Shown: positions 5,310 to 22,467 of the stretch, piece after piece | Layout: each line of letters begins with the position of its first letter | Numbering within the stretch: position 1 is the first letter of the stretch | From: a virus | Direction: 5' to 3' (one strand) | DNA length: 32,719 nt | IMG/VR virus record: IMGVR_UViG_3300008114_000178 | Span: 1-32,719 of that record | Position numbers and translations under genes: made by a program | The notes under the pieces: model-generated | What the model was told of the DNA's origin: nothing | Databases searched by the model: none | The model's input: the letters and a program-made list of their open reading frames with translations, nothing else

Positions 5310-5362
5310 GTTATTGATAATCAATAACTTACAAAAAATAGAAAAAAAATTACTAAAAATAG

Positions 5363-5505: not shown

Positions 5506-5724
5506 ATGGATATTAGACAAACAAGAAGAGCATTAAACTTAACGCAAACGCAACTCGCCGACATGACGGGGCTATCTATTGGCACTATCAATAGAGCCGA
5601 AAAGACGGGCAAAATAACACTCAAGAACCATCGCTTAATAACCCAAAAACTCATGGACTATGCTGCCAATTTTAATACTGGTTACGTTAGCATCGGTAAT
5701 GCTAATAATATCTTTAATATCTAA
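5506..5724 (+). CDS. XRE/Cro-C1 family DNA-binding regulator
   Basis: 72 residues with one helix-turn-helix at roughly 10-33: LNLTQTQLADMTGLSIGTINRAEK is a typical Cro/C1 pattern (Q-x-x-LA-x-x-x-G-x-S-x-x-T-I-x-R-x-E). The rest is a short helical tail, so it is a DNA-binding domain without a ligand or cleavage domain, as in Cro-type phage regulators. It sits near the start of the early unit after the terminator and promoter region, so it probably controls early phage transcription. No integrase is seen, so a lysogeny repressor role is not supported. Its last 65 bases are also read in another frame by the next gene. Confidence 0.85.
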   Translation: MDIRQTRRALNLTQTQLADMTGLSIGTINRAEKTGKITLKNHRLITQKLMDYAANFNTGYVSIGNANNIFNI

Positions 5725-9768: not shown

Positions 9769-10154
9769 ACGCATCGGGACTTAATTACCATCTCGGCCTC
9801 CGTTCCTCAATAGATATAGACTATTGGGTTGACAAAACAAATCAATTCTTAGAGTGGAAAGCCACTGTTATTAGCAACACACAAGGCATTACCAATCTTT
9901 ATGGCTATGCAAAAGGAGCACACTTTTGGATAAGATTTAGAATTGACATAGATGACCTCTCAACCAAAGAGGAGGAGTCACTTATCAAAGAGTGGGATGG
10001 TGAGGTGCATAGAGGCTATCTTGAGGGTACGTTCTGCGTTAGTACGTTCACCGAGAAGGATTGGCAAATAGAATTTAGCGTTGAGCCAAAGCCATCAATG
10101 ATACCTCAAGAGCTGCGAGTCAATTTCATGGATAAACTAATGGAGGTGGTATGA
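9738..10154 (+). CDS. Hypothetical protein, 138 residues
   Basis: Mixed alpha/beta soluble protein without membrane segment or signal peptide (IDIDYWVDKTNQFLEWKATV, FWIRFRIDIDDLSTKEEES, GYLEGTFCVSTFTEKDWQIEF). It ends with a 4-base overlap (ATGA) with the methyltransferase gene. No family or motif recognised. The operon position links it to DNA modification or nucleotide functions, which is not evidence of a role. Confidence 0.7.
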   Translation: MDFKTTKFDVDASGLNYHLGLRSSIDIDYWVDKTNQFLEWKATVISNTQGITNLYGYAKGAHFWIRFRIDIDDLSTKEEESLIKEWDGEVHRGYLEGTFCVSTFTEKDWQIEFSVEPKPSMIPQELRVNFMDKLMEVV

Positions 10155-11215
10155 AACATGGCTCATTATTTAGTGGCATTGGAGGCTTTGACCTGGCTGC
10201 CGAATGGATGGGATGGGAGAATGTTTTCCATTGTGAGTGGAACAAATTTGGACAGCAAGTATTAAAATATTATTGGCCTAATTCAATTAGTTACGATGAC
10301 ATCACCAAAACAGATTTTACTATTCACAGAGGAAAAATTGACATCATCACCGGAGGATTCCCATGTCAACCATACTCAAGTGCAGGAAAGCGACTTGGCA
10401 AAGAGGATGAGAGACACCTCTGGCCGCAAATGCTTAGAACGATTAGAGAGGTTCAGCCACGTTGGGTCGTGGGCGAAAACGTTCTCGGCCTTGTTAATTG
10501 GTCAGGAGGGTTGGTTTTCCACGAGGTGCAAGCTGACTTGGAAGCTGAAGGGTACGAAGTACAACCGTTTGTACTTCCAGCTGTTTCCGTCAACGCACCC
10601 CACCGAAGAGACCGAGTTTGGTTTGTTGCCCACTCCAAAAACAATGGATGGAATGGCGGAGAATTTGAACAGCGGGAAGGAATTGAAACTAATCAATGGA
10701 AGTTTTGTGAACATAAGACAAAAGGACGGGATGAGGTTTGGCCCGAGTCTCAACGACATAGCCAAAATGGGAATGTTGCCGACACCGAATGCACAAGATT
10801 GGAACACAGGAACGAAACCAGAAACTTATCAAACGAGAAAAGAAAGACATCAACAGAAAGGAGTCAATTTGCAAATGAGTTTGAGACAGATGGCGATGGG
10901 GAGCGGTTGTCTGCCAACTCCGATGGCATCGGATTGCGGAGAGAAAGTAACTGGTCTGGAAAATCAAGATTCATTAGTAAAAATGACAAGAGAAATGACT
11001 GGCAAACCTTCCCAACTGTCTCCCCAATTTGTTCTGGAGATGATGGGATTTCCGACCGATTGGACTCTATTACCTTTCCTAAATGGAGAAATGAATCAAT
11101 CAAAGCCGGAGGAAATGCAATAGTTCCTCAAGTAGTTTACCAAATATTTAAAACAATCGAACAATATGAGAGAATCACTAATACAAGGCGCGATCCGCGC
11201 TCACCTCATCAATGA
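10151..11215 (+). CDS. DNA (cytosine-5) methyltransferase
   Basis: 354 residues. Motif I FSGIGGFD (7-14) binds S-adenosylmethionine; motif IV GGFPCQPYS has catalytic Cys72; motif VI GEN-V at 108-111; motif VIII RRDRVWFV (152-159); motif X GNAIVPQVV (321-329). It transfers a methyl group to cytosine C5, probably protecting phage DNA from host restriction or marking it. No cognate restriction gene is seen. The region between motifs VIII and X (about 160-318), where the target recognition domain should be, is hydrophilic and low in hydrophobic residues, with AHS (160-162), ADT (210-212) and ANS (255-257) repeats each followed by a G-L/W context. That whole stretch is also open in another frame (10296-11123), which may explain the odd composition. 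Confidence 0.93.
   Translation: MKHGSLFSGIGGFDLAAEWMGWENVFHCEWNKFGQQVLKYYWPNSISYDDITKTDFTIHRGKIDIITGGFPCQPYSSAGKRLGKEDERHLWPQMLRTIREVQPRWVVGENVLGLVNWSGGLVFHEVQADLEAEGYEVQPFVLPAVSVNAPHRRDRVWFVAHSKNNGWNGGEFEQREGIETNQWKFCEHKTKGRDEVWPESQRHSQNGNVADTECTRLEHRNETRNLSNEKRKTSTERSQFANEFETDGDGERLSANSDGIGLRRESNWSGKSRFISKNDKRNDWQTFPTVSPICSGDDGISDRLDSITFPKWRNESIKAGGNAIVPQVVYQIFKTIEQYERITNTRRDPRSPHQ
10296..11123 (+). CDS. Overlapping reading frame nested in the methyltransferase gene (LPTP-repeat protein)
   Basis: A 275-codon frame wholly inside the methyltransferase gene. Unlike a random shadow it has protein-like order: a Trp/Leu-rich part (FSHVGSWAKTFSALLIGQEG, CKLTWKLKGTKYNRLYFQLFP), three spaced repeats GLLPTPKTMDG, GMLPTPNAQDW and GCLPTPMASDC (LPTP at 10626, 10776, 10911), and an end LSPQFVLEMMGFPTDWT. 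From memory, proteins with these same features recur in sequence databases beside or overlapping phage cytosine methyltransferases, suggesting both frames are conserved. It may be a separate protein translated from an internal start (ATG 10296), or a pattern forced by the methyltransferase sequence. No function is known to me. Confidence 0.45.
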   Translation: MTSPKQILLFTEEKLTSSPEDSHVNHTQVQESDLAKRMRDTSGRKCLERLERFSHVGSWAKTFSALLIGQEGWFSTRCKLTWKLKGTKYNRLYFQLFPSTHPTEETEFGLLPTPKTMDGMAENLNSGKELKLINGSFVNIRQKDGMRFGPSLNDIAKMGMLPTPNAQDWNTGTKPETYQTRKERHQQKGVNLQMSLRQMAMGSGCLPTPMASDCGEKVTGLENQDSLVKMTREMTGKPSQLSPQFVLEMMGFPTDWTLLPFLNGEMNQSKPEEMQ

Positions 11216-11447: not shown

Positions 11448-13934
11448 ATGAACTACTTAGACTTAGGCATTAATGCTATTGCCGTTAATGATAAAAAACA
11501 ATCACTTTACCCTTGGAAAGAATACCAGACACGACAAATAACAAAAGAGGAGTTCGACAAGCAAATGTCCGACCCACGAGCCAAAGGGATGGCTATTATT
11601 TGTGGTGGTGTCTCCTCAAACCTTGAGGTCATTGACATAGACACTAAATACGAGACCTACCCTCTTTGGGAGGAGATACAAAAGGCAATCCCTCAAGACA
11701 TCTACAAAAAGCTTCATATTGTCAACACCAAATCAAATGGTAAGCACTTATATTATCGTTGCGAATGCATACAAGGAAACCAAAAGTTGGCTCTTCGCCA
11801 TGCCACTCCGGAAGAGTTAACACAAAACCCTCACAATAAGACTTATTGCATCATTGAGACTCGTGGTGAGGGTGGCTACGTTGTAGCACCCCCAAGTGAA
11901 GGGTACACCATCTTGCAAGAGGGTATTAATGTGCTTAGTGTAGAGGAAAGAATGCAACTATTTGAGGTTATGGGTGCATTTAATGAGGTTATTGATGAGG
12001 TGGTAATCGAAGCACACCATAGGCCAAGCACTAAAGATTATGGAGTCTCACCTTTTGATGACTATAACAAAAGAGGGGATTTGCGAGGGTTATTAGAAGG
12101 GTATGGTTGGGAAATAGTTAAAAGCAATAGTGAGAGGGATTATTACCTACGCCCTGGTGGCACATCCTCTCACTCCGGCTCATTTAATAAGTCTCTTGGT
12201 CTATTTTCCGTGTTCTCTACCAATACACCTTTTGAGCCAAATAAAGGCTATAAATTGGCTCATGTCTTCACCATATTGGAGTGTAATGGAGATTGGAAAA
12301 AGAGCGCTAAAAAGCTACTCGAAAATGGCTATGGTGAGAAGCGTATCAACTTCGGTGATAAACTTGAAAAAGAGTTATTTGAGAAAAAAAAGGATGGTGC
12401 TACCAATGATGACTTAATTACCATTTTGGTAAAAAAATATGATAAAGACCTCACCAACGCTAAAGAGATAGTTGATGACCTTGAACAAAGGTGGGGGGAC
12501 AAGATTTGTACCTTTTGGGACATTGATAAGAATGGTAACCCACAAATTAGTAAGTACAAACTTCAAATATTCCTAACCGAGCAAGGAGGATTTAGGCTTT
12601 ATTTCTACGATAAACAATCCACCTCTTATAGGTTGGTTAGAATAAAAGATGGTTTTGTTGAGGAGGCATCAAGTGAACAAGTAAAAAAGTTTATTAAGGA
12701 CTATATTGATAGACTCCCAGATAGCTTTGATGGCGGTATCACCCCACAAGATTTGTTGGAGTTGGTCTATAAAAATGCCATCTCGCTATTTAGTGATGCC
12801 TTTTTTGAGTTTTTTACTCGTGCAGATATTGACTTTCTAAAAGACACCAAAGACATTGCTTTTTTTCCATTTATCAATGGAGTGGTACAAATTACCAAAA
12901 ATGATATAAAACTTGTTACCTATGGCGAATTAGGTAAGGTTATTTGGAAAACACAAGTTATCAACCACTTTATTCATGTGGATCAAGATGGTATTGACCC
13001 AGAGAGTATTGAATATTTTAGGTTTCTAAAGCGTATTAGTGGAGATACACCCGAGAAGTATATGTACGCTCTTAGCCTTATCGGTTACCTTTTGCACCAA
13101 TACAAAGACCCCGCAAGACCATTCGCCGTAATTTTAGCCGAGGAGACCGACAATGAGGAGAAAGGAGGAGGTACCGGAAAGGGTATTTTTGTCAAAGCTC
13201 TTAGTTACATAGTCAAAACCATCCGAGTTGATGGTAAGAACTTTAAGGTTGACAAAAACTTTGCCTTCCAACGGGTTGACCTTGACACTCGAATAGTAGC
13301 CATAGAGGATACTCGTAAAAAGGTAGATTTTGAGGGATTTTATAGCATTATAACCGAAGGTATAACCGTAGAGAAAAAGAACAAGGATGAGCTCTTTATA
13401 CCCTATAAGGACTCTCCTAAGATACTTTTTACCACTAACTACTCTATCCCACAAAATGGTATCCATGCCAAAAGGAGACAAAGAGTCTTTGAGTTTGCCC
13501 CATACTTTGGTGCAACCAAGACCCCAGAGGATGAGTTTGGACATAAACTTTTTGATGATTGGGATAAAGATGAATGGAATAGGTTTTATAACCTCTTATT
13601 CTTCTCTTTAAGCGACTATTTGGCTAATGGTGTAGTCAATATACCATTTAGTGAAAAGATGGCAAGGAAAGCCCTTAAAAATCAGTTTGGTGATGAGTTC
13701 GTAGAACACTTTGAGGAAATCATCAAAAATGGTGATTGGGTGAGTATAGACCAATTGCATCAAGAGTTCTTAAATATGTATGGAATGGATAAAAAAGACT
13801 ATACCAGAATACGGTACAAGAGGGGAATTAAAAGTGGTACAGAATTGTATGGAATTGAGTATTTGGAACAAAAACATCAGGTTGAGAGAGGTAAAATAGC
13901 TATAAGATTTAGTAGTTTACCCTTAGATTTTTGA
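11448..13934 (+). CDS. Primase-polymerase / superfamily 3-like helicase fusion
   Basis: 828 residues. The N-terminal part is a prim-pol domain: metal-binding Asp63-Ile-Asp65 (LEVIDIDT), SNGKHLYYR (96-104) and ETRGEGGYVVAPPS (137-150). The C-terminal part is a D5/DUF5906-type helicase: P-loop GGGTGKG (573-579), Walker B-like VAIEDT (617-622), KILFTTNY sensor region and RRQRVFEF arginine region. Position 579 is Gly where Ser/Thr is common, a variant I know from DUF5906 proteins. The middle (about 200-550) is a less conserved linker domain. It probably makes primers and unwinds DNA at the phage origin; the iterons start 3 bases after its stop codon. Confidence 0.9.
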   Translation: MNYLDLGINAIAVNDKKQSLYPWKEYQTRQITKEEFDKQMSDPRAKGMAIICGGVSSNLEVIDIDTKYETYPLWEEIQKAIPQDIYKKLHIVNTKSNGKHLYYRCECIQGNQKLALRHATPEELTQNPHNKTYCIIETRGEGGYVVAPPSEGYTILQEGINVLSVEERMQLFEVMGAFNEVIDEVVIEAHHRPSTKDYGVSPFDDYNKRGDLRGLLEGYGWEIVKSNSERDYYLRPGGTSSHSGSFNKSLGLFSVFSTNTPFEPNKGYKLAHVFTILECNGDWKKSAKKLLENGYGEKRINFGDKLEKELFEKKKDGATNDDLITILVKKYDKDLTNAKEIVDDLEQRWGDKICTFWDIDKNGNPQISKYKLQIFLTEQGGFRLYFYDKQSTSYRLVRIKDGFVEEASSEQVKKFIKDYIDRLPDSFDGGITPQDLLELVYKNAISLFSDAFFEFFTRADIDFLKDTKDIAFFPFINGVVQITKNDIKLVTYGELGKVIWKTQVINHFIHVDQDGIDPESIEYFRFLKRISGDTPEKYMYALSLIGYLLHQYKDPARPFAVILAEETDNEEKGGGTGKGIFVKALSYIVKTIRVDGKNFKVDKNFAFQRVDLDTRIVAIEDTRKKVDFEGFYSIITEGITVEKKNKDELFIPYKDSPKILFTTNYSIPQNGIHAKRRQRVFEFAPYFGATKTPEDEFGHKLFDDWDKDEWNRFYNLLFFSLSDYLANGVVNIPFSEKMARKALKNQFGDEFVEHFEEIIKNGDWVSIDQLHQEFLNMYGMDKKDYTRIRYKRGIKSGTELYGIEYLEQKHQVERGKIAIRFSSLPLDF

Positions 13935-14111
13935 TTTTGTACTACTTTGTACCACTTTTGTACCACTTTTGTACCATTTTGCTTTTTTTATTACTTATTG
14001 ATTTATAATACTTTATAATCCTTGTACCACTTGTACCATATTTTTTACATATTTTGAAGTGAAAAAGTTAAAAAGGTAAAAAATAGAGGTGGGGGGGGAA
14101 GAAAGAAAAAG
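13935..14111. other. Putative phage replication origin region
   Basis: The longest true non-coding gap in the replication block. It holds iterons on both sides of an AT-only-like stretch (13983-14020, a candidate unwinding element), then an abrupt switch to a purine-rich + strand (14056-14111) including a run of eight G (14091-14098). It is flanked by the primase-helicase gene and a DnaA-domain gene, the two functions needed at an origin. No direct proof of origin activity is visible. Confidence 0.6.
13937..14039 (+). repeat. Iteron array TTGTACCAC (6 copies in two clusters)
   Basis: Copies of TTGTAC(C/T)A(C/T) begin at 13937, 13947, 13958, 13969, 14022 and 14031. Spacings within clusters are 10, 11, 11 and 9 bases, close to one helical turn, so bound proteins would line up on one DNA face. 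The clusters are separated by an AT-rich stretch (13978-14021). An inverted copy, AAAAGTGGTACA, is at 13830-13841 inside the end of the primase gene and ACGGTACAAG is at 13811-13820. Confidence 0.85.
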
Positions 14112-14519
14112 ATGAAAAACATGGAACAGCTTAAAATGTTATTAGGAATTTGTGCCGAGGTCATGGATACCACACCGGAGAAAATTATCGGTAAAGAGAG
14201 ATTCAGAAAGACCGTAGTAGCAAGACAAATCTATTGCTATATTTCAAGGAGGTTTTTGAACTATAATTTGGGTGAGATAGGTAAGTCCATAAACAAAGAC
14301 CATACCACCGTGATACACTCAACGAGATTCGTGGCTAATATGCTTGAGATGGATGACCCAATAATATCCATCCCTTATGGTAAAATAATGGAAAAACTAA
14401 AAGAGAACAACTACACCGAAATAAAGCTCTCAATAATGGTCAACGACATTATTAATCCAAACATAATAATAAACGATATCCAAAATAGATATGATTGCAT
14501 CATAACTCCGATTTATTAA
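14112..14519 (+). CDS. DnaA domain IV-like DNA-binding protein
   Basis: 135 residues. The centre matches the DnaA C-terminal DNA-binding domain: FRKTVVARQIYCYISRRFLNYNLGEIG, then INKDHTTVIHS, the DnaA signature (DHTTV-H). AAA+ domains are absent, so it binds DNA but cannot itself melt it by ATP-driven assembly. The last 50 residues (from about PYGKIMEKL) are not DnaA-like. It probably binds the iterons just upstream and recruits host or phage replication proteins, or competes with host DnaA. ATG 14112 is preferred; ATG 14121 is possible. Confidence 0.85.
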   Translation: MKNMEQLKMLLGICAEVMDTTPEKIIGKERFRKTVVARQIYCYISRRFLNYNLGEIGKSINKDHTTVIHSTRFVANMLEMDDPIISIPYGKIMEKLKENNYTEIKLSIMVNDIINPNIIINDIQNRYDCIITPIY

Positions 14520-14572: not shown

Positions 14573-14770
14573 ATGCAAAAGAAAGGCTTTTACTTTAGGC
14601 AGAACGAGAGAGATGGCTCTCTCATGCTTAATGTGAATGTAGGCGATTTTAAGGCGTTTTTAGACACCTTGCCTAATAAGGATGGGTGGGTAAAGCTTAG
14701 GATATTTGAGCGCGATAAAAAGGACGAGAAGGGCTTTACGCACAATATGGAGGTGATACATCAACACTAA
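14573..14770 (+). CDS. Hypothetical protein, 65 residues
   Basis: Small soluble protein (FYFRQNERDGSLMLNVNVGDF, KAFLDTLPNKDGWVKLRIFERDKKDEKG) of mixed beta and charged composition. It sits in the short interval between the DnaA-like gene and the small terminase. A TTG-N16-TAATTTTAC element (14542-14569) directly upstream could be a weak promoter, but it would leave almost no leader. No family recognised. Confidence 0.65.
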   Translation: MQKKGFYFRQNERDGSLMLNVNVGDFKAFLDTLPNKDGWVKLRIFERDKKDEKGFTHNMEVIHQH

Positions 14771-19715: not shown

Positions 19716-20885
19716 ATGGAAAATTTGAAGCAATTTGAAGATGCCTTGGCATCTAAGTTGGCCGAGCAAAAGGCCGAGGTTGTAGCTGCTACCGAGAAAG
19801 CCGCTAAAGCATTTGAATCTCGCGTTGAGCAAATCAACGAAGAGATGGTTAAGGCAAACAAGACCGCTGCTGAAGCTGTTGCCGAAGTTAAAGAAGCTAA
19901 AGCTGCCTTTGGTAAGCTCCAAGCTAAAGAAGAGAAGAAGGTTGCCGTTTCTTACGCTGACCACATCAACAACATCAAGAGCGAAATTGGTGCTGCTATC
20001 GAAAAGGGTTGGAACGACATTAAGTCTGCCGCTCGTGGTAACGGTAAAGGTTTCTCTTACGAGATGGATTTGAAGGCCGTAGGTACTATGACCATTTCTA
20101 ACAACCTTACTGGTTCTGTTTACACCTCTTATGTTGACAACCCAGCTCTCCGTAGCTTTGTTAACCCTCACCTGAGAAGTGTGTTCAACATCATCCCCGT
20201 ATCAACTGGTTCTGTATCTTTCCCTCGTGGCAACAGCCCCGTTGGTGAAGGTTCTTTCGGTAAGCAAACTGAAGGTTCTGCAAAGCCTCAAGTTGATTAC
20301 GATGTAACCGTAGTAAACACCGCGTTGTCTTTCATCGCTGGTTACGCTAAAGTATCTCGTCAGATGATTGATGACCTTCCTTTCTTGCAAGCTTATTTGC
20401 AGCAGTCTTTGATCGAAGACTTCCAAAAGGCTGAAGATACATATTACCTCAACGCCATCGCCGCTTCTGCTACCGCAGGTTCTTCTTCTGGTGCTAACAC
20501 CGCTGAGAAGTTCATTGATTATGTAGCTCAATTGGGCGCGTTGAACTGGACTCCAAATCTTTCCTTGACCACACACGCTGGTTGGGCTGGTTTGTTGAAA
20601 ACCAAGCCATCCGATTACTCTATCCCTGGTGGCATGGTTATCGACCAGAATGGTAACGTTCGTATCGTAGGCGTTCCCGTTATCCCTCATAGCTTGGTTA
20701 CTGCTTCCAAGATTTATGTGATGGATACCACTAAGTTTGCTATCGCACAACAAAGTGGTCTCGCGGTTCGTTCTACCGAGTTCGACCAAGATGACTTTAT
20801 CAAAAACCTCATTACCTTCCGTTGCGAGGCTCGTTGCGAACTCCTCCAGTTCCAACCAACTGCCGCTGTTTACGGAGCTATCTAA
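19716..20885 (+). CDS. Major capsid protein (HK97 fold)
   Basis: 389 residues. Residues 1-75 are an Ala/Lys/Glu-rich coiled coil, the usual delta domain that acts as scaffold and is removed by the prohead protease; the mature part begins somewhere near 80-110. The later region (SVYTSYVDNPALRSFVNPHL, VSFPRGNSPVGEGSFGKQTEG, SFIAGYAKVSRQMIDDLPFLQAYLQ, DTYYLNAIA, CEARCELLQFQPTAAVYGAI) is standard for HK97-type capsids. The leader TCTAACAAAATGG is A-rich with no Shine-Dalgarno. Codon use (CGT for Arg, AAC, TTC, GCT) is visibly unlike the neighbours (AGG/AGA, AAT), consistent with very high expression. Confidence 0.93.
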   Translation: MENLKQFEDALASKLAEQKAEVVAATEKAAKAFESRVEQINEEMVKANKTAAEAVAEVKEAKAAFGKLQAKEEKKVAVSYADHINNIKSEIGAAIEKGWNDIKSAARGNGKGFSYEMDLKAVGTMTISNNLTGSVYTSYVDNPALRSFVNPHLRSVFNIIPVSTGSVSFPRGNSPVGEGSFGKQTEGSAKPQVDYDVTVVNTALSFIAGYAKVSRQMIDDLPFLQAYLQQSLIEDFQKAEDTYYLNAIAASATAGSSSGANTAEKFIDYVAQLGALNWTPNLSLTTHAGWAGLLKTKPSDYSIPGGMVIDQNGNVRIVGVPVIPHSLVTASKIYVMDTTKFAIAQQSGLAVRSTEFDQDDFIKNLITFRCEARCELLQFQPTAAVYGAI

Positions 20886-21499
20886 TCGGGTTTGATTGTT
20901 ATGGTTCTAAATGGGGGCGGCATGCAGTTATTATAGGAGCTATGGATGGGGTATCATTTGATGATATATTTGATACCTTAAATAATTACAAAAAAGTATT
21001 ATTTGTTGAACCTGTACCGCATTATTTTAATTTATTAAAATTAAATGCACATAGATTAAATACTGAAGTTTGTTTTGAAAATTCACCAATAAGCGACAAA
21101 CATGAAAATATTGAATTAGCATATTTAGATATAAATTCATTAAATAATTACGAATATTTTTATAAGGGTTGCAGTAGTGTTATAGAAAACGGCGAACCAA
21201 TAAATAAATATTTAAAAAAAGTTGATAATAAAGACTTAGTAATACTTTCTTGTAAAAGTTTGACATTTAATGATTTATGCGAAAAATGGGATATTAAAGA
21301 GATTGAATATCTACAAATAGATTGTGAAGGATATGACCAAAGAATTGTAAATAGCATAGATTTAGAAAAGTATAATATAAAAAAATTGAAATTCGAAACA
21401 CACTATTTAGATAGTGATTTCATAAGTATATTTTCCAATAAGTGGCCTAATTATAAATATGAATTGATTGAAGCAGATATAATATACTATAAACTATGA
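20885..21499 (+). CDS. FkbM-type methyltransferase, apparent ATC start
   Basis: 204 residues if initiated at ATC 20885, which shares its A with the capsid stop TAA. No ATG or GTG lies in a useful place: the next ATG (20941) would remove the AdoMet loop VIIGAMDGVSFDD (residues 15-27 from ATC), and the TTG codons at 20822/20834 lie inside capsid sequence. Other motifs: FVEPVP (40-45), and LQIDCEGYD (Asp146-Glu148) typical of Methyltransf_21. FkbM enzymes methylate sugar or other hydroxyls. The gene is strikingly AT-rich compared with the capsid gene. It is followed by a glycosyltransferase gene with a 4-base overlap (ATGA). Function: probably finishes a glycan; target inferred. Confidence 0.8.
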   Translation: MGFDCYGSKWGRHAVIIGAMDGVSFDDIFDTLNNYKKVLFVEPVPHYFNLLKLNAHRLNTEVCFENSPISDKHENIELAYLDINSLNNYEYFYKGCSSVIENGEPINKYLKKVDNKDLVILSCKSLTFNDLCEKWDIKEIEYLQIDCEGYDQRIVNSIDLEKYNIKKLKFETHYLDSDFISIFSNKWPNYKYELIEADIIYYKL

Positions 21500-22467
21500 A
21501 CTTTCTATTAAGCGTACATCTTTATCCACCTAAGCATCTTTGCGGAGCTGAAACCATGATACATGGGATAGCAAAACATTTGATTAGCAAAGGCCATAAT
21601 GTGCGAGTTTTATTGCATCAAGCAAATCATTATAAAATAAGTAATAATTACACTTTTGACGGGGTGGATGTGTTCCCTCCTAATACTAATGTAATAGATG
21701 GGTTGATGAGGTGGTGCGATGGGGTATTTACCCATTTGGATTACACAAGATGGACAATACACACGGCAAAAATGTATAAAAAGCCTGTTTTTCATCTTAT
21801 ACATAATAGCCATCCATACCCAGAGATTATAATGGCCGAGAAGCCACAACACATTATTTATAATTCTTTTTGGTTAAAAGACTTACTTAATTATAATTTT
21901 AGTAACTTTATATTGCCTCCACCTACCGACTATCGTTATTTTGACTTGGGCATAGACCCTATCAAAAATGAGTACATTACTTTGATTAACTTGAACAAGA
22001 ACAAAGGTGGGGAGATATTTGAGCAAATAGCGAAAGCGATGGCAAATAAGAAGTTCTTAGGTGTCATTGGCTCTTATGATGAGCAAATCATACCTAAGTT
22101 GCCAAATGTGAGGATAGTTGAGAAAAGTGTGAACATTAAGGATTATTATGCTATCACTCGGATACTTGTTATGCCAAGTGAGTATGAGAGTTGGGGCATA
22201 ACGGCAACAGAGGCTATGAGTAGTGGTATTCCGGTGATATGCACCGAGACACCTGGCCTTTTGGAGAACTGCGGTAAAGCTGCTATTTATGTCAAAAAAC
22301 GAGATGATATTAAAGCTTGGGTTAAAGCGATTAGCGACTTGGATGATGAAAAGAAATATAGAGAGTTTAGTCGAAAAGCAAAAGAGAGAGCAAAGGAACA
22401 CGACCCAAGAAAAAAACTCGATGAGCTTGAGCCATGGATTAGAGAAAAGGTTTATCAATACAAATAG
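21496..22467 (+). CDS. Glycosyltransferase family 4
   Basis: 323 residues. The N-terminal Rossmann domain begins MNFLLSVHLYPP and has GAET (17-20) and ISKGHNVRVLL; the C-terminal nucleotide-sugar domain has EYESWGITATEAMSSGIPVICTETPGLLENCG with the Glu231-x7-Glu239 motif of GT4 retaining enzymes. HNSHPYPE (103-110) may contribute to the acceptor site. It probably transfers a sugar to a virion protein or host glycan. It sits between capsid and connector genes with FkbM upstream, a place that suggests capsid decoration. Codon use is mixed: AT-rich at the start and closer to phage average towards the end. Confidence 0.87.
   Translation: MNFLLSVHLYPPKHLCGAETMIHGIAKHLISKGHNVRVLLHQANHYKISNNYTFDGVDVFPPNTNVIDGLMRWCDGVFTHLDYTRWTIHTAKMYKKPVFHLIHNSHPYPEIIMAEKPQHIIYNSFWLKDLLNYNFSNFILPPPTDYRYFDLGIDPIKNEYITLINLNKNKGGEIFEQIAKAMANKKFLGVIGSYDEQIIPKLPNVRIVEKSVNIKDYYAITRILVMPSEYESWGITATEAMSSGIPVICTETPGLLENCGKAAIYVKKRDDIKAWVKAISDLDDEKKYREFSRKAKERAKEHDPRKKLDELEPWIREKVYQYK

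Follow-up and report, generated by a model that had tools for sequence, protein, structure and literature searches.

The direct repeats that follow the primase-helicase gene in the window (the whole analyzed stretch of viral DNA, 32,719 nucleotides) are very probably the site at which a phage of the Bacteroidota starts its replication. With a probability of about 70%, we consider them to be an iteron origin of the type known from phage P4 and from PICIs, present here in a tailed Bacteroidota phage and served by an initiator that combines PrimPol, helicase and winged-helix domains, with the DnaA domain IV protein encoded next door as a conserved accessory factor. Mechanistically, the primase-helicase encoded directly upstream would bind the iterons through its C-terminal winged helix, assemble on both iteron clusters, open the AT-rich DNA, and prime synthesis, as do the alpha protein of P4 and the Pri-Rep proteins of PICIs. 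The domain IV protein would bind DNA at a different target, which might resemble a DnaA box and be situated in the promoter of its own gene or in the host DNA. The assignment to the Bacteroidota is based on related prophages of Niabella and Chitinophaga and on matches to flavobacterial phages, and not on the window itself.

Iterons and the primase-helicase gene

The sequence TTGTACCAC occurs in six direct copies on the plus strand, each with at most one mismatch, at 13937-13945, 13947-13955, 13958-13966, 13969-13977, 14022-14030 and 14031-14039, with start-to-start spacings of 10, 11, 11, 53 and 9 bp. These iterons are located 3 to 105 nt past the stop of the primase gene (13934), which is also the place of the repeats in relatives, and their two clusters (13937-13977 and 14022-14039) flank an AT-rich core at 13978-14021 (G+C 0.23 in 60-nt windows). 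Dinucleotide shuffling of the region 13935-14111 yields on average 0.05 copies of TTGTACCAC (maximum 1), and even if any 9-mer may be chosen post hoc, the shuffled sequences reach a mean of only 2.05 copies (maximum 4). In the whole window, there are 26 copies versus 7.5 expected. The first-pass annotation had described six direct repeats in two clusters around an AT-rich core, and had placed inverted copies in the end of the primase gene; the direct repeats are confirmed by these counts, and the inverted copies are indeed present on the minus strand at 13834-13842 (one mismatch) and at 13811-13819 (two mismatches). The former looks functional, as it covaries with the iterons: in L015, which has TGTACCGC iterons, AGCGGTACA replaces AGTGGTACA by a silent change of a serine codon from AGT to AGC. 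The inverted copy matches the iteron type in L224 as well, where it is present twice. The weaker copy at 13811-13819 encodes a conserved R-Y-K and may be coding sequence only. The cumulative GC skew, proposed earlier as a check, rises all through this region and does not switch at 14 kb, and thus neither supports nor refutes an origin.

The gene upstream of the iterons (11448-13934, plus strand) encodes a replication protein with Pfam and PHROG matches, whose N-terminus is a PrimPol domain (PF09250, E 1.4e-12) and whose second domain matches DUF5906 (PF19263). This second domain is probably a superfamily-3-like helicase, as judged from its position and from the GGGTGKG motif, which as GGGTGKGIF is invariant among the relatives. 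The C-terminal segment, encoded by 13647-13919, is predicted to fold as a winged helix and is the proposed reader of the iterons. Its AlphaFold2 model has a pLDDT of about 64-89 (mostly 72-89), the rest of the primase model being poor, and its structural matches are winged-helix domains with Z-scores of 6-7.8. The P4 alpha domain is absent from this match list, which is uninformative either way, and a sequence search with the full-length primase alignment gave no relative of solved structure.

Which protein the iterons follow

The primase was found in about 80 virus contigs, and covariation was analyzed on 69 distinct loci. The recurrent order in these relatives is the primase-helicase gene, about four iterons, the AT-rich core, two more iterons that are 8-9 bp apart in nearly all cases, and the DnaA domain IV gene, which is present in all 73 loci that extend for at least 900 nt downstream of the primase. 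In a crude repeat statistic, the values of 49 of 69 loci lie above those of every shuffle, versus 2 of 61 control stretches. Most clades have an additional inverted pair upstream of the DnaA domain IV gene, and the clade of the window has the inverted copy in the primase gene end instead. The iteron sequence itself varies by clade, with TGTACCAC, TGTACCGC, GTACGCGA, GTACACGA, ACGTCATT and TAACATCA in some clades and GTAGNSCA, GTANTCGA, TGCRCGAT, GTAGCGGA and TGTTCCAC in others, and the protein that reads it can therefore be sought by comparison.

Across the 69 loci, iteron distance correlates with the distance of the primase C-terminus at r 0.64, versus 0.38 for the DnaA domain IV protein. In partial Mantel tests, whose p-values are approximate as the loci are related, the correlation with the primase C-terminus is 0.61 when the DnaA domain IV protein is given (p 0.001), and the correlation with the latter is -0.29 when the primase is given. 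In 35 pairs of loci in which the primase C-termini differ by at most 5% and the DnaA domain IV proteins by at least 30%, the mean iteron distance is 0.03, whereas in 42 pairs with the reverse constellation (domain IV at most 20%, primase C-terminus at least 15% different) it is 0.30, and no such pair falls below 0.05. Natural exchanges agree with these numbers. L038 and L043 share an identical 165-nt origin and an identical primase C-terminus, but their DnaA domain IV proteins are different, with the recognition helices RHHSTVIH and RDHATVMN, and L075 and L068 likewise have identical iterons and swapped DnaA domain IV genes. L066 combines a domain IV protein of the L029 type with the primase C-terminus and the iterons of the L053 type. 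The loci with AACATCA iterons (L061, L069 and L077) are set apart from their clade by fixed changes at five positions of the primase C-terminus (four of them in the wing) and at seven of the longer primase core, and by none in the DnaA domain IV protein. The changes of iteron type counted by parsimony (15 on the tree of the primase C-terminus, 13 on that of the primase core and 18 on that of the DnaA domain IV protein) are too close to decide by themselves.

Taken by sequence comparison, the covariation indicates that the winged-helix C-terminus of the primase recognizes the iterons, and not the DnaA domain IV protein. As the iterons abut the 3' end of the primase gene, physical linkage alone could in principle cause such co-inheritance. 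However, in L066 also the downstream inverted cluster is of the L053 type, although the preceding spacer is L043-like, which argues against linkage alone, and this cluster, together with prophages that have no DnaA domain IV gene nearby, reduces the linkage objection but does not remove it.

Repeats and domain IV genes do in fact occur apart from each other. Four prophage relatives in bacterial genomes (L303, L307, L310 and L300) have significant repeats 3' of the primase, and no DnaA domain IV gene was found within the 14.5-19.5 kb that were fetched around each of them. A Chitinophaga locus (L204/L298) presents a similar case, with repeats of borderline significance and no DnaA domain IV gene nearby. 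In L198, this gene is absent from the 33-kb contig, and its repeats are not significant by the crude repeat statistic; in the distant relatives L295, L301, L302 and L304, repeats after the primase were not detectable. Conversely, the Olleya phage Harreka_1 encodes a DnaA domain IV protein without this primase as neighbor, and in the L197 contig several kb separate the domain IV gene from the primase gene downstream of it.

These observations bear directly on the reading of the first-pass annotation, which had proposed a probable phage origin with its initiator and had suggested that the DnaA domain IV protein may bind TTGTACCAC, regarded as an altered DnaA box, and bring the primase-helicase to it. 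Of this, the iteron origin beside the primase-helicase is supported, and the role of the domain IV protein as iteron binder is not, as the iterons track the winged helix of the primase instead. The constant adjacency of the gene, the true domain IV fold, the exclusive invariance of the counterparts of two E. coli DnaA residues (see below) and the CCAC that TGTACCACT and TTATCCACA have in common would all agree with an initiator function, but the exchanges that leave the iterons identical, the iterons found with no such gene nearby, and the shift of the iterons from ACGYSATT to AACATCATT, which no fixed change of the domain IV protein accompanies, make this model unlikely, also in a version in which both proteins share the repeats.

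It is quite unlikely, too, that the repeats serve transcription only, as an operator of the DnaA domain IV gene or of the late operon, and have no role as origin. They are intergenic and upstream of a gene for a protein with a DNA-binding fold, and in relatives there are clade-specific motifs just before the start of this gene; the repeats themselves, however, adjoin the primase stop, usually at a distance of 100-400 nt from the domain IV start, they are kept where no DnaA domain IV gene follows, and an AT-rich core between two clusters fits known iteron origins (PMC6092414). An initiation of phage replication by host DnaA, with the repeats as its binding sites, is highly improbable: TGTACCACT weakly resembles a DnaA box and the adjacent gene encodes a DnaA-like protein, but from phage to phage the repeats are widely divergent (GTACGCGA, GTAGTCCA, TAACATCA and others), which is unexpected for sites of a conserved host protein, and only 4-8 of 75 intergenic regions contain standard DnaA boxes.

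The DnaA domain IV protein and the central palindrome

If the primase-helicase reads the iterons, the question arises why a DnaA domain IV protein that apparently does not read the origin is retained in every close relative. The gene at 14112-14519 (plus strand) encodes 135 residues, and the only match of the protein is Bac_DnaA_C (PF08299, E 3.4e-16, residues 13-72); an AAA+ ATPase domain was not found. This match, together with the predicted fold, bears out the earlier statement that the neighbor of the primase encodes DnaA domain IV only. The AlphaFold2 model (pLDDT 91) superimposes with 1.3-1.4 Å rmsd on the domain IV-DNA complexes 3pvp and 1j1v. Among 24 diverse members, R30 and H64 are the sole invariant residues, and they align with R399 and H434 of E. 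coli DnaA, which are known as base-contacting residues. The protein thus shares with DnaA the domain IV fold and two invariant contact residues, and differs from it by the absent AAA+ domain, as the iteron box differs from TTATCCACA. In open-access papers, to which our search was confined, no study of a phage protein consisting only of DnaA domain IV was found.

In one clade, TTATCAACA or TTATCCACA lies 26-57 nt before the start of the DnaA domain IV gene, and intergenic regions are enriched for both boxes, of which an exact copy is absent from the window. Positions like these would be compatible with autoregulation or with a target in the host. In L047, L060 and L170, several copies of a second, different repeat (ATTTAGTAAA-like) immediately precede the DnaA domain IV gene as a candidate operator. 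Downstream of the gene, many relatives encode a conserved small protein that weakly matches DUF6911 (14573-14770, plus strand, in the window). A more far-reaching idea is that the phage splits the job of DnaA, with private iterons being read by the primase-helicase and the ATPase-less domain IV protein occupying host DnaA boxes, at oriC or at DnaA-regulated promoters, and thereby blocking or redirecting host initiation. We regard this as rather doubtful; if it were true, the phage replication would escape its own inhibitor.

Between the two clusters, most relatives have a palindrome, TTGATWATCAA, which is found with at most one mismatch in 56 of 75 loci versus 1.7% of background stretches. In five genomes with relatives of the primase, it is rare. 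The window has a degenerate copy with three mismatches at 13998-14008 (plus strand). We considered the palindrome as a site for the DnaA domain IV protein, but this link is unsupported, since the palindrome is degenerate in the window and also occurs in L296, L306 and L312, which have no DnaA domain IV gene in the fetched stretch. In these three prophage-like loci, CTGATAATCAA- or TTGATAATCAA-like palindromes are situated near the primase-proximal repeats, and such palindromes therefore look like a deep feature of the origin. Elsewhere in the window, the intergenic region before the HTH_3 regulator gene at 5506-5724 contains a perfect palindrome, TTATTGATAATCAATAA (5311-5327), which shares its core with the inter-cluster palindrome of most relatives.

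Comparison with known origins

What known systems resemble the origin proposed here? In PICIs, the origin directly follows the 3' end of the initiator gene and consists of two iteron sets around an AT-rich region, and the initiators, which are of the Pri-Rep type (PICI/SaPI), exist in several allelic variants (PMC6092414), all of which is also the case here. The P4 alpha protein, likewise a single primase-helicase, binds its origin repeats via a winged-helix domain (PMC4234260). The window has the repeats directly 3' of the gene, the two sets around an AT-rich region and, as a predicted fold, the winged helix. The differences are that P4 alpha has a Toprim-type primase whereas the protein of the window has a PrimPol domain, and that, in contrast to the PICI/SaPI systems, the window belongs to a tailed Bacteroidota phage with structural genes of its own, a PrimPol-type primase and an added DnaA domain IV gene. 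PICI satellites have no full virion gene set, whereas the window has open reading frames that, by reading of the sequence, resemble terminase, portal, capsid and tail genes. The ORF904 protein of pRN1 (PMC4234260) also unites PrimPol, helicase and a C-terminal winged helix in one polypeptide, with the origin downstream of its gene, but pRN1 uses a large stem-loop and no iterons. A pRN1-like stem-loop origin is not favored for the window, which has iterons and no unusually stable single-strand fold at 13900-14120 (z 0.59).

An origin of this kind would extend the PICI/P4 type to tailed phages and prophages of the Bacteroidota, and the about ten natural iteron types with sequenced initiators would be enough to derive recognition rules for the winged helices of PrimPol-helicases from sequence.

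Two further arrangements in the window lie apart from the origin. A 275-aa open reading frame at 10296-11123 is located wholly inside, and in another frame than, a C5 cytosine methyltransferase gene (10151-11215); the main frame matches PF00145 (E 1e-46) and the inner frame PHROG 1008 ("DNA methyltransferase", E 7e-25), so that the two are likely a long overlapping gene pair. At 20822-22467, genes for an FkbM-type methyltransferase and a group 1 glycosyltransferase are located between the major capsid-like and the head-tail genes.
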